In this document: one piece after another, positions 22,190 to 26,195 of the stretch
How positions within the stretch are numbered: the first letter of the stretch is position 1
How the letters are laid out: every line of letters begins with the position of its first letter
Notes under the pieces: model-generated
Seen by the model: only the letters and a program-made list of their open reading frames with translations
Databases searched by the model: none
Told to the model about the DNA's origin: nothing
Program-made: the position numbers and the translations under genes
DNA from: Actinomyces gerencseriae DSM 6844
Lineage (GTDB): Bacteria > Actinomycetota > Actinomycetes > Actinomycetales > Actinomycetaceae
Length of the DNA: 64,000 bases
Direction of reading: 5' to 3'
NCBI RefSeq assembly: GCF_000429265.1
Contig: NZ_AUBN01000003.1
Coordinates: 248,001-312,000 of the forward strand

Positions 22190-23464
22190 ATGATGAGTCG
22201 GTCACCTCGCGCAAGCGCCGCGCGCCGCTCCTGGGGCGACGACGACTCGGGCGCACCGATCCTCCACGTGGACATGGACGCCTTCTTCGCCTCGGTCGAG
22301 CTCCTCGAGCACCCCGAGCTCGTCGGGCGGCCCGTCATCGTGGGAGGCGCCTCGGGGCGCGGCGTCGTCTCAGCCGCCTCCTACGAGGCCCGCATCTACG
22401 GGGTGACCTCGGCCATGTCCATGGCCGAGGCGCACCGGCGCTGTCCCCAGGCGGTCGTCCTGCCGGTGCGCCATGGCCTGTACTCCCGGGTCTCGCGCCG
22501 GGTGATGGAGATCCTCGGGCGGGTCACACCGATGATGGAGAAGGTCAGCGTCGACGAGGCCTTCCTCGACGTCTCAGGAGCGCGCCGGCGCATGGGCCCC
22601 CCGGTCGCCATCGCCAGGTGGATCCGCGCCGAGGTCCGCGAACGCATCGGCGTGCCCGCCTCGGTGGGCGTCGCCGCCACCAAGTTCGTGGCCAAGCTCG
22701 CCTCCTCCCACGCCAAGCCCGACGGACTGCTCCTCGTGCCGGCCGACGCCACCCGGGATTTCCTCGACGTCCTTCCGGTGGGAGCGCTGTGGGGCGTGGG
22801 CGACAAGAGCGCCCGGGTCCTCCAGCGGTGGGGGATCCGCGACGTGCGAACCCTGGCCGCCACCGACGTGCGGCGCCTGGAGAAGATCCTCGGGACCGCC
22901 GCCGGCCGTCACCTGCACGACCTCTCCCACGGCATCGACCCCCGGCCCGTGACCCCGGAGCACGAGGAGAAGTCCGTAGGCACGGAGTCGACCTTCTTCG
23001 AGACCATCACCGACCGCGCGCACGCCCGGCGCGTCCTGCTCGATCAGACCCACCAGTGCGCCGCCCGCCTGCGCGCGGGAGACCTGCGCGGGCGCGTCGT
23101 CGTCCTCAAGGCGCGCGGCGCCGATTTCGTCACCGTCACCCGCTCGCGCACCCTGACCGCGCCGACCGACCTGGCGCGCGACCTGTTCGCGGTCGTCGAG
23201 AGGCTCTTCGACGCACTGCCCACGCCCGGGGGCGGATTCCGACTGCTGGGCGTGAGGGTCGAGGGCCTGGCCCGCGCCGACGACGGCGTCCAGCTCCTGC
23301 TCGACGACGATCCCCGGCGCGGGGCGCCCGAGCGCGCCGCGGACGCCGTGCGCCGCCGCTGGGGCGCCGGCGTCCTGGCCCCCGCCAGTCTCCTGGAGGC
23401 GCCCGGGGGCGCCTCGGCCCGGGCCTCCGAGTCGTCGCGCACGGGTCGGACCGGGCGCGCGTGA
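22190..23464 (+). CDS. dinB: DNA polymerase IV (Y-family translesion polymerase)
   Basis: 424 residues. Catalytic carboxylates are in HVDMDAFFASVE (Asp28, Asp30) and VSVDEAFLDVSG (Asp122, Glu123). The steric-gate region and YSRVSRRVMEIL fingers follow. A helix-hairpin-helix GVGDKSARVLQRWGI and the little-finger domain EHEEKSVGTESTFFETITD complete the polymerase. GCAGGAGGCG precedes the ATGATG start. The C-terminus lacks an obvious beta-clamp pentapeptide (ends SSRTGRTGRA), though one could be cryptic. Performs error-prone lesion bypass. Confidence 0.95.
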   Translation: MMSRSPRASAARRSWGDDDSGAPILHVDMDAFFASVELLEHPELVGRPVIVGGASGRGVVSAASYEARIYGVTSAMSMAEAHRRCPQAVVLPVRHGLYSRVSRRVMEILGRVTPMMEKVSVDEAFLDVSGARRRMGPPVAIARWIRAEVRERIGVPASVGVAATKFVAKLASSHAKPDGLLLVPADATRDFLDVLPVGALWGVGDKSARVLQRWGIRDVRTLAATDVRRLEKILGTAAGRHLHDLSHGIDPRPVTPEHEEKSVGTESTFFETITDRAHARRVLLDQTHQCAARLRAGDLRGRVVVLKARGADFVTVTRSRTLTAPTDLARDLFAVVERLFDALPTPGGGFRLLGVRVEGLARADDGVQLLLDDDPRRGAPERAADAVRRRWGAGVLAPASLLEAPGGASARASESSRTGRTGRA

Positions 23465-23666
23465 GACCATCCGGGAACCGGAGTGATCGGGGTGCGGCGG
23501 AGGGGACCGCTCGCGGAGCCCCGGACCCCGGGACTCATGGGCGGTACCGGTTTCCCAGATATGACGCTCACCGCCTATCCTGGCACCGTCCGGAACCGCG
23601 CCGGTGCGGGCCGATCGCCGCGGCACCCGTCACCGGAGCACGAGACTCGGGAAAGCGAGGTGCGCT

Positions 23667-24035
23667 GTGGCGTTGTCGGAGCGTGAGCAACAGGTGCTGC
23701 GCGATCTGGAGGAGCAGCTACACGTCGAGGACCCGTCGTTGGCTCATAGCATGGGCCGTGCGGAGGCGTCCCGGCGACGGGCCTCGCCGCGGCACGTGGG
23801 CGCGGGAGTCGCTCTGGTGCTCGTGGGGCTGGCCTTCGTGATTGGAGGCGTCGCGGTGGGCCACTCGCTGGTCTCCATCCTCCTGGGAGTGGCGGGCTTC
23901 GGAGTGGCGGTGTGGGGGGTGACCCTCATGCTCACCCGGGCCGAGTCCGTCGGCTCCCGCGGGACGTCCGCGGGCCCGTCCTTCATGGACCGCCAGTCCG
24001 AGCGCTGGGATCGGCGCCGCAGCAGTGAGAACTGA
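23667..24035 (+). CDS. DUF3040 small membrane protein
   Basis: 122 residues from GTG 23667, with GCGAGG upstream. It begins ALSEREQQVLRDLEEQLHVEDPSLA, the DUF3040 signature, followed by a basic linker and two membrane helices (about 46-66 and 70-90). DUF3040 proteins sit just before mraZ in many actinobacteria, suggesting a link with wall or division, but their biochemical role is unknown. It is separated from mraZ by a strong terminator. Confidence 0.88.
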   Translation: MALSEREQQVLRDLEEQLHVEDPSLAHSMGRAEASRRRASPRHVGAGVALVLVGLAFVIGGVAVGHSLVSILLGVAGFGVAVWGVTLMLTRAESVGSRGTSAGPSFMDRQSERWDRRRSSEN

Positions 24036-24050
24036 CTGAGGACCGACCTC

Positions 24051-24066
24051 CTCCACTTCCCTCCAC
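24051..24066 (-). promoter_or_regulatory. Inverted pair of MraZ-type boxes (array A)
   Basis: CTCCAC at 24051-24056 and 24061-24066 reads as two GTGGAG boxes exactly 10 bp apart on the minus strand, just after the DUF3040 stop and upstream of its terminator. Same motif and spacing as the boxes near mraZ. Confidence 0.45.
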
Positions 24067-24080
24067 CCGAGCCGTTCGAG

Positions 24081-24111
24081 CCCCGTCGCCACCCCGGTGA
24101 CGGGGTTTTTT
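24081..24111 (+). terminator. Rho-independent terminator of the DUF3040 gene
   Basis: CCCCGTC (24081-24087) pairs with GACGGGG (24099-24105) and is followed by TTTTTT. It cleanly separates the DUF3040 gene from the mraZ promoter region. Confidence 0.85.
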
Positions 24112-24208
24112 CGTGCCGTTTCATGTTCTTCCGCACTCTCCGCCGCGCTCGTTACGACGGCTTTCGCGGCGGAGCGCCACGCCGGGGCGCGACCGCCGAC
24201 TCGCTCTC

Positions 24209-24224
24209 CTCCACTTCTCTCCAC
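24209..24224 (-). promoter_or_regulatory. Inverted pair of MraZ-type boxes (array B)
   Basis: CTCCAC at 24209-24214 and 24219-24224 is again two GTGGAG boxes at 10-bp spacing on the minus strand, about 140 bp before the mraZ ATG. Confidence 0.45.
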
Positions 24225-24286
24225 CGCGGAAAACGGCGAGTTCATGCCCTTGGAGGTGGGAACGTGACGCGTATGCGACGCCTGGT

Positions 24287-24322
24287 GTGGGAGAAAAAGG
24301 AGGGAAGTGGAGTACTGTGGGG
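24287..24322 (+). promoter_or_regulatory. MraZ operator: four 10-bp-phased GTGGRG-like boxes (array C)
   Basis: GTGGGA (24287), AAGGAG (24297), GTGGAG (24307) and GTGGGG (24317) follow one another at exactly 10-bp intervals, ending about 40 bp before the mraZ ATG. MraZ of other bacteria binds several such direct repeats in its own promoter and represses the dcw operon, so this is its probable autoregulatory site. Confidence 0.75.
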
Positions 24323-24360
24323 CGCACTGGACCGTCGAGGAGGGGAAGGAGGGACGCCCG

Positions 24361-24792
24361 ATGTTCCTGGGCACCCACGCCCCCCGTCTCGACCAGAAGG
24401 GACGGCTGATCCTCCCGGCGAAGTTCCGGGATGAGCTGGCCGGGGGAGTGGTCCTCACCCGGGGGCAGGAGCACTGCCTCTACGCCTTCACCGCCGCGGA
24501 GTTCGAGCGCATGTACGCCCAGCTGCGCGAGGCTCCTCTCGCCCAGAAGCAGGCGCGCGACTACGTGCGCGTCATGCTGTCGGGCGCGGACTCCCAGATC
24601 CCGGACAAGCAGGGACGAATCACCCTGCCGGCGCCCCTGCGCGCCTACGCCGGACTGAGCCGGGACCTGGCCGTCATCGGCGCCGGTGCCCGCGTCGAGA
24701 TCTGGGACGCCGAGGCCTGGCAGACCTATCTGGCCGCGCAGGAGCAGGTCTTCGCCGACACGGCCGAGGAGATCATCCCCGGCTTCTTCTGA
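24361..24792 (+). CDS. mraZ: Transcriptional regulator MraZ
   Basis: 143 residues, first gene of the dcw cluster. Two AbrB/SpoVT-like half-domains are evident: [23 protein letters not shown] at the start, and [18 protein letters not shown] in the middle. MraZ binds phased repeats upstream of itself and modulates division and wall genes. ATG 24361 was chosen over an in-frame ATG at 24307 because the family begins at MFLG and a GAAGGAGGG Shine-Dalgarno stands eight bases upstream. Four phased boxes lie just before the gene. Confidence 0.96.
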
Positions 24793-25034
24793 GTCGGCGT
24801 CCCACGGCCGCGCGGACAACCGCATATCGCTCATATCGCTGCCGAGCCCCACGGCTCCATCGCCATGCGGCCCCGTCCCGTGAGGTCTCCGCCCGCCGCA
24901 GCGTCCGACGTCACTTCCCCGGCGCCGGAACGCGCGGGAGGAGTCCTGGCGGGACGGAGCCGGGCCGGCTCGGCCGCCCGCATCCGCCCGCGCGCCATCC
25001 AGACCCCGCACGATCGACCAGGAAGGAGGGGACG

Positions 25035-26195
25035 GTGAACAAGACCCGGACGACCGCCGACGGCGACTCCGCCGGTCGCGCCCGCGGCGCCGCACCGCCG
25101 GCTCGGCCCGTCACCGCGCTCGACGCGGCGCAGATCGCCGATCTTCACGCACCCGTCCTCCTTCGGCGCTGTCTCGACCTGCTCGCCCCGGCCCTGACCG
25201 GGCCCGGCGCCCCCGTCCGCCCGCTCCTGATCGACTGCACGCTCGGCATGGGCGGGCACAGCGAGGCGGCGCTGGAGCGCTTCGAGAGCCTCATGGTCGT
25301 CGGGATCGACCGGGACCCCGAGGCGGTCTCGCTGGCGAGATCCCGTCTCAGCCGCTTCGGCGGGCGCTTCCGGGCGGAGCGCGCCACCTACGATCGCGTC
25401 GATGCCGTCGCGCGCCGGGCCGCCGAGGCGGCCGGACGGCGGGACGGGACCGTCGACGCCGTGCTCATGGACCTCGGCGTTTCCTCCCTCCAGCTCGATC
25501 GCGTCGAGCGGGGCTTCTCGTACTCGCGCAGCGCGCCCCTCGACATGCGCATGGACCAGTCCGGCGGGTGCACCGCGCAGGACATCCTCGACGGCGCCGA
25601 CGAGGACGAGCTCGCTCGCATCCTGCGGACGTACGGCGAGGAGCGCTTCGCCCCGCGCATCGCCGCGGCCATCGTGCGCCGGCGCGAGGCGGGCGATCCG
25701 GTCGAGTCCACCGACGCCCTGGCGGATCTGGTGCGCGCCTGCGTGCCGGCGGCCGCCCGCCGCACCGGCGGGCACCCGGCCAAACGGACCTTCCAGGCCC
25801 TGCGCGTGGCCGTCAACGGCGAGCTCGAGCTCCTCGAGCTCGCCGTGCCCCGGGCGCTGAACTCCGTGCGCGTCGGCGGCCGCGTCGTCATCGAGTCCTA
25901 CCAGAGCCTGGAGGACCGCGTCGTCAAGCGGGCGCTCGCCGCGGGGGCCCGCCCATCGGTCCCCCGGGAGCTCCCCTTCGTGCCCCGGGAGGCCCTGCCC
26001 TACCTCGAGCACGCCACCCGCGGGGCGGTCAGGGCCGACGGCGACGAGCTCGCCGACAACCCCCGCAGCGCATCCGTGCGGCTGCGGGCCGCCACCCGCA
26101 TCCGTCCCGCCCGCGAGGCCCCCGCACCGGAGCCCGCCCCCGGACCCCGCACCCATCCCGCCAGAACGCCCGCACAAGGAAGGAGAGGCAGATGA
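25035..26195 (+). CDS. rsmH: 16S rRNA (cytosine(1402)-N(4))-methyltransferase
   Basis: 386 residues from GTG 25035, behind GGAAGGAGGGG. SAM-dependent methyltransferase acting on C1402 of 16S rRNA in the decoding centre. SAM motif LLIDCTLGMGGHSEA is near 64-78. Other hallmarks are VVGIDRDPEA, MDLGVSSLQLD, LDMRMDQ and TFQALRVAVNGELELL. N-terminal 30 residues and a Pro/Ala-rich C-terminal tail extend the core. Its TGA overlaps the ftsL-like ATG (ATGA). Confidence 0.96.
   Translation: MNKTRTTADGDSAGRARGAAPPARPVTALDAAQIADLHAPVLLRRCLDLLAPALTGPGAPVRPLLIDCTLGMGGHSEAALERFESLMVVGIDRDPEAVSLARSRLSRFGGRFRAERATYDRVDAVARRAAEAAGRRDGTVDAVLMDLGVSSLQLDRVERGFSYSRSAPLDMRMDQSGGCTAQDILDGADEDELARILRTYGEERFAPRIAAAIVRRREAGDPVESTDALADLVRACVPAAARRTGGHPAKRTFQALRVAVNGELELLELAVPRALNSVRVGGRVVIESYQSLEDRVVKRALAAGARPSVPRELPFVPREALPYLEHATRGAVRADGDELADNPRSASVRLRAATRIRPAREAPAPEPAPGPRTHPARTPAQGRRGR

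Follow-up and report, generated by a model that had tools for sequence, protein, structure and literature searches.

A predicted MraZ operator in Actinomyces with inverted, helically phased auxiliary sites that are probably bridged as a DNA loop

Introduction

In Escherichia coli, the MraZ operator is made of short GTG-containing direct repeats with a 10-bp period, on which the ring-shaped MraZ sits, and in the established model MraZ blocks RNA polymerase at such phased promoter boxes. Among the regulators known to loop DNA, LacI (O1/O3) and GalR combine a main operator at the promoter with auxiliary operators located about 90-115 bp away and in helical phase with it. According to the available text of the respective papers, MraZ of Burkholderia cenocepacia binds, over the start site, four repeats of 7 nt that are separated by 3 nt (PMC7761207), AAAGTG[T/G] direct repeats are found at the mraZ promoter of Mollicutes (PMC8475190) and, in Dietzia, a gel shift showed that MtrA binds the mraZ promoter region (PMC9602371).

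Here, we analyzed the mraZ locus of Actinomyces gerencseriae DSM 6844 in a 64,000-nucleotide stretch of its genome, hereafter the window. The main array of this locus is like the operators of E. coli, B. cenocepacia and Mollicutes in that direct repeats containing GTG recur every 10 bp at the mraZ promoter. Those systems, as described in the text available, have one promoter array, whereas here two more are present, both inverted and composed of two boxes, the nearer one being helically phased. The arrangement also resembles that of LacI and GalR in its main operator at the promoter, the distance of the auxiliary site and the helical phasing. However, LacI and GalR use palindromes, whereas the ring-forming MraZ binds tandem polar boxes, the auxiliary sites are inverted and looping is here a proposal. 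The Dietzia case is similar in that an actinobacterial mraZ is controlled from its promoter region, but the regulator is a different one, and the terms 'mraz box' and 'repeat' are absent from the main text of PMC9602371.

Materials and Methods

Two sets of mraZ upstream regions were assembled. The named set comprised 80 loci selected by MraZ similarity (best 80 of 121 matches). For the class-wide set, 393 genomes were examined, of which 347 had an mraZ match; 100 upstream regions were drawn from the approximately 150 best matches, and 30 genomes picked from other families were also included. The class-wide set is weighted toward closer relatives of Actinomyces. Regions with less than 300 bp upstream were excluded (L026, L053, L082, L174, L176), including one (L026) with a proximal inverted pair at 97 bp. 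The 206 regions retained consisted of 78 from the named set, the window included, and 128 from the class-wide set (82 genera, 40 families), with one genome common to both (L078 = L173). A sample from other classes contained 40 regions, taken mostly best matches first from 72 genomes of the same phylum with an mraZ match. Codes such as L158, f66 and g47 are arbitrary labels for loci, families and genera.

The main array (O1) was placed by a score favouring TA between its boxes 3 and 4, so that TA is present in all 206 regions by construction. The proximal inverted pair (B) was called at 11 or more of 12 box points, on the minus strand, 80-125 bp 5' of O1 box 3. Rayleigh R values were calculated with one vote per genus or family, relatedness being otherwise ignored.

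Results and Discussion

The mraZ gene (24361-24792, + strand) is located between a DUF3040 gene (PF11239; 23667-24035, + strand, stop codon at 24033-24035) and rsmH (from 25035). Its 143-aa product, the presumed binder of all three arrays described below, matched PF02381 with 131.8 bits (cut-off of 23). Two DXXXR signatures, which are the mark of the MraZ family, were recognized by eye in the frame starting at 24361 (LDQKGRL and PDKQGRI). The closest named relatives of this MraZ, among the best 80 of 121 matches, were those of A. massiliensis, A. israelii and Actinomyces sp. oral taxon 448 (97%). A phmmer comparison with solved structures returned matches to 1n0e, 9qlr, 9sx6 and 9qlg and, by analogy with its relatives, MraZ of this Actinomyces would be a ring-shaped oligomer.

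An earlier note on this DNA had claimed three arrays of 10-bp-phased boxes around mraZ, two of them inverted, and all three were found. The main array, O1 (24287-24322, + strand), is the predicted MraZ operator and has four boxes in 10-bp steps: GTGGGA (24287-24292), a degenerate AAGGAG (24297-24302), GTGGAG (24307-24312) and GTGGGG (24317-24322). The two others lie on the minus strand, each a perfect GTGGAG-N4-GTGGAG pair. The proximal pair, B (GTGGAGAGAAGTGGAG, 24209-24224), starts 98 bp 5' of O1 box 3, and the distal pair, A (GTGGAGGGAAGTGGAG, 24051-24066), is located 15 bp past the DUF3040 stop codon and 256 bp 5' of box 3. A sits between this stop codon and the sole intrinsic-terminator-like site of positions 23400-24450, which lies on the + strand at 24091-24112 (stem-loop at 24091-24106, then a T run), 3' of the DUF3040 gene and between A and B. 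When the window was aligned with three near relatives, the boxes of A and B and the last O1 boxes were invariant and fell in conserved blocks, the B spacer being variable.

Other features of the region are worth recording. Two more blocks conserved in the four-species alignment are found between B and O1 (24225-24243 and 24258-24269). The 7-mer CACGCCG (24178-24184) also lies in a conserved block and is kept in three of the four species; it is identical to a 7-bp mycobacterial MtrA motif given in the available text of PMC2945938, and is likely common in GC-rich DNA. An Rfam search of positions 23400-25200 (E up to 1) gave two matches, neither of them on A or B: a chance microRNA match and, between mraZ and rsmH (24876-24958), the mraW RNA motif (RF01746), with 40.8 bits (E 1.3e-6) and thus below the Rfam gathering score of 50.

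The arrays are real and specific to the mraZ region, not the product of chance. The pattern GTGGRG-N4-GTGGRG occurred three times in the window versus a shuffle mean of 0.12, and none of 100 shuffles gave three matches. Such pairs are also not common by chance genome-wide: the 3.42-Mb genome contains six, three of them at mraZ, versus two for the reversed control pattern, and the three pairs away from mraZ overlap long, mechanically called open frames. Across 37 Actinomyces genomes, 51 of the 75 GTGGAG-N4-GTGGAG sites were found within 1.5 kb 5' of mraZ, none of the 37 genomes being without one, and 39 of these 51 were on the strand opposite mraZ. The 24 pairs located elsewhere were not above the 39 reversed-control matches (control summed by hand).

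A class-wide logo with one genome per genus (82 genera) revealed a TTGAC-16-TANAGT promoter under O1, with boxes lying between its two elements and the -10 between boxes 3 and 4. The window keeps a -10-like hexamer at this place (TACTGT, 24313-24318, + strand); TTGAC is absent from the matching -35 position in the window, and a sigma-70 consensus scan of positions 23400-24450 gave no site. O1 has tandem GTG-containing boxes with a 10-bp period over the mraZ promoter, as MraZ operators do, and the comparative evidence supports the earlier suggestion that it is the expected MraZ operator, at which MraZ would, by the standard expectation, occlude RNA polymerase. A minus-strand promoter inside A or B was also considered and rejected, because in the logos the B spacer is without the TA that O1 has.

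B was found in 52 of the 128 class-wide genomes (34 of 82 genera, 15 of 40 families), and at full score in 26 of the 128. Its polarity is constant: a + strand pair 80-125 bp 5' of O1 was seen in none of the 128 class-wide genomes, and the single + strand pair within 70-160 bp lies at 147 bp (L158). Within 27 Actinomyces genomes, B was located at 80-150 bp in 22, a degenerate pair was present at 98 or 120 bp in four more, and one had none. No B reached the threshold in 76 of the 128 class-wide genomes, and in this set it is absent throughout families f27, f31, f32, f34, f36 and f40, among others. B is hence not essential for MraZ function, since these 76 genomes do without it. The upstream G+C content did not differ between regions with B (0.679) and without B (0.678). 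When other box spacings were searched in the same zone, 59 of the 63 control-spacing matches overlapped B arrays, and they therefore do not constitute a separate background.

The G-richness of the arrays raises the question of whether the boxes are DNA structures instead of protein sites, with a precedent in Staphylococcus aureus, in which, according to the available text of PMC11796246, a parallel G-quadruplex is formed by a G-rich motif located downstream of the mraZ promoter. We consider this reading extremely improbable here: conservation is confined to the GTGG cores in their 10-bp steps, the spacers being variable, and a G-quadruplex would not lead one to expect a constant 10-bp period, or arrays on opposite strands that keep phase with each other.

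The helical phasing of B to O1, which was not part of the earlier note, is the strongest evidence. The best-scoring B-O1 distances per genus fell at 85-89, 95-100, 107-110 and 118-121 bp, that is in steps of about one helical turn, and none was observed at 90-94, 101-106 or 111-117 bp; lower-scoring extra matches occurred at 92 and 122 bp. At 10.5 bp and measured from O1, R was 0.743 for 34 genera and 0.719 for 15 families, versus 0.224 and 0.101, respectively, when measured from the mraZ start codon instead. The best period was 10.7-10.9 bp over 80-125 bp (10.6-10.9 over 80-160 bp), and the p value, corrected for having scanned periods 7-16, was 0.002, the lowest that 500 permutations can give. 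Among 51 other named loci (L033-L086 minus L080; two have Actinomyces in their titles, and one genome also belongs to the class-wide set), B was present in 21, always at 86-89, 97-99 or 109 bp (R = 0.86). Single boxes in genomes without B were not phased (R = 0.18, 12 genera). Pooled control spacings seemed phased at first (R = 0.48), which is explained by their overlap with B arrays; the four matches independent of B (3 genera, R = 0.93, p of about 0.07) are too few to weigh.

This register is not one inherited length, as the spacing has changed repeatedly on the MraZ protein tree. Indeed, the spacing class required 22 parsimony changes versus 49 when shuffled, an approximate count since the tree was made from a short protein and its errors inflate the number of spacing changes. 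Within Actinomyces, the B spacing takes values of 86, 97-99, 108 and 120 bp. The exceptions lie at 136-146 bp. In the A. oris group (8 of the 27 Actinomyces), B is found at 144-145 bp, about half a turn out, in several cases as part of a three-box run; L169 has it at 146 bp and three others at 136-141 bp. Apart from these, the distance between B and O1 is held to one helical register, as with looping operators.

Phasing of this kind has a bearing on two other readings. A and B could be independent low-affinity reservoirs or decoys of MraZ that make no contact with O1, their distance being set by ancestry; they do carry the same boxes, and most class-wide genomes (76 of 128) manage without B. 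Still, a reservoir needs no fixed polarity, yet 52 inverted pairs versus 0 direct ones were counted at 80-125 bp in the class-wide set, and it needs no phasing to O1, yet the spacing changes repeatedly and mostly by whole turns, so that we find this reading improbable. Alternatively, B could be an upstream activation site at which MraZ touches the C-terminal domain of the RNA polymerase alpha subunit, with MraZ activating from B at low level and repressing from O1 at high level. Upstream activators also show helical phasing to the promoter, whose place is fixed within O1, and by our own reckoning the B centres precede the expected start site by about 97-130 bp. The usual reach of direct activators is shorter than or about these distances, which places B at or beyond it, and B is a two-box MraZ array, not an ordinary activator half-site. 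Activation from B thus seems rather unlikely.

We also considered an RNA device, in which a CUCCAC-rich A or B in DUF3040 read-through transcripts would pair with the GUGGAG-rich O1, the resulting hairpin controlling how mraZ is transcribed or translated. In the minimum-energy fold of positions 24036-24360 (z-score of -2.48), A (24051-24064) does pair with O1 (24299-24312), and B and O1, compared as whole 16-mers, are slightly more alike within genomes (12.85/16) than across them (12.52; p = 0.008). However, the spacers of B and O1 do not co-vary (identity of 1.47/4 versus 1.54 when shuffled, p = 0.74), a 10.5-bp rhythm in distance is unexpected for RNA pairing, the terminator-like site lies between A and O1, and the start expected from the -10 would put most of O1 outside the mraZ mRNA. 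As the compensatory changes expected of an attenuator were not found (p = 0.74), a stem of A or B with O1 was largely rejected, and we regard the RNA device as very improbable. A and B share their box and 10-bp period with O1 and are found where mraZ is found. In genus g47 (family f35, genomes of 6-11 Mb), no listed genome has an mraZ match, and in 18 of these genomes the 1.5 kb preceding the rsmH match contained no pair on either strand. This absence does not separate protein binding from RNA pairing because O1 is also lost there; the two are separated by the register and the missing spacer covariation.

A strict distal pair on the minus strand, at 160-310 bp, was detected in 25 of the 128 class-wide genomes, versus 0 on the + strand and 0 to 6 for five other spacings. 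Its register is weak or inconsistent over three sets (R of 0.30-0.43 to O1, and of 0.18, 0.29 and 0.59 to B). In 22 of 85 DUF3040-containing loci, A abuts the DUF3040 stop codon (offset of -1 to 19), with counts of 1 to 5 for other spacings. The earlier note had proposed co-control of the DUF3040 gene. No pair is found near the 5' end of this gene in the window, and the DUF3040 gene was not detected within the 1 kb or less examined in 19 of the 25 class-wide genomes with a strict distal pair. Co-control is thus not supported and was rejected as the main reading. The upstream genes in DUF3040-free genomes with distal pairs, as judged from open frames in 18 loci, were too noisy for identification.

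For A alone, and compatible with a loop involving B, a role as a boundary or roadblock after the DUF3040 stop codon is conceivable but unlikely: MraZ bound there would keep transcription from entering the mraZ promoter. Such a role agrees with the position of A at -1 to 19 bp past the stop codon in those 22 of 85 loci and with its varying distance to O1, but no DUF3040 gene was detected at 19 of the 25 strict distal pairs of the class-wide set, and a terminator-like site is already there. We read A as a further candidate auxiliary site, whose upstream limit may be set by the neighbouring gene. In several loci (L064, L069, L070, L073-L076) from Pontimonas and other Microbacteriaceae-type MAGs, a single GTGGAG facing CTCCAC or CCCAC is found just past the DUF3040 stop codon. 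This element replaces the inverted pair and forms a near-perfect hairpin in L069, L070 and L076.

The locus is best explained as an MraZ operator with inverted, rotationally phased auxiliary sites, which, judging from sequence comparison, are probably bridged as a DNA loop that tightens autorepression. The sites, their conservation, their polarity and their phasing are observed in the sequences; the binding of MraZ to B and A, the bridging and the sign of the effect are what we infer from them. MraZ, as an oligomeric ring, would bind the 10-bp-phased O1 boxes over the core mraZ promoter and block RNA polymerase. B would offer a second, inverted two-box site in one register, about 87, 98, 109 or 120 bp away depending on the species. 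Either one ring or two rings meeting would then bridge O1 and B, the intervening DNA forming a small repression loop. This loop would raise the occupancy of O1 and tighten the autorepression of the division and cell-wall operon, with A as a further auxiliary site without firm register. Given the polarity of MraZ boxes, inversion of the second site would be natural for two rings in face-to-face contact, or for one ring with DNA on two of its faces, a geometry that is presumptive. The looping suggested in the earlier note thereby gains comparative support from the inverted polarity, the phasing to O1 and the absence of arrays in the mraZ-less genus, while its DUF3040 component does not.

Beyond this class, 40 loci were searched with the looser GTGG-N6-GTGG pattern. 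Family f62 had inverted upstream pairs in five of five loci. In family f66, from another class, a GTGGAG pair in direct orientation was present in three of three loci (L269, L273 and L276), at 123, 123 and 134 bp upstream, distances that are one turn apart (hand-measured to the TA box). The remaining 32 loci mostly had only + strand boxes near the gene, or none. The inverted pairs of f62 and the direct pairs of f66 indicate that the two-site architecture is broader than one polarity. Two records titled Tissierella and Rubrivirga (L047 and L086) contain actinobacterial-type mraZ regions, for which mislabelling or contamination of these assemblies is the probable cause.

The MraZ box and ring are known. 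The available text of PMC8475190, PMC7761207, PMC5138195, PMC9602371 and PMC11796246 does not describe inverted phased auxiliary arrays, and a search for literature on MraZ promoters, operators, boxes and looping, which covered mostly papers outside subscription, revealed, among the listed titles and opening lines of abstracts, no mention of MraZ sites that are inverted or engage in looping. These arrays are new as far as this literature goes, a statement that does not extend to everything in print.

Conclusion

We give about an even chance to a more general proposal, that MraZ is a looping (wrapping) repressor in Actinomycetota, its ring or rings holding O1 and an array of opposite polarity in register, and that the polarity is lineage-specific, inverted in most and direct in f66. 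If true, this would amount to a class of repression loop in which tandem polar boxes take the place of palindromes. The conserved, inverted and phased site leads to a testable question, namely whether an MraZ ring bridges two DNA segments. Such a site would also mean that clones of actinobacterial mraZ promoters carrying only the promoter-proximal array miss part of the operator.
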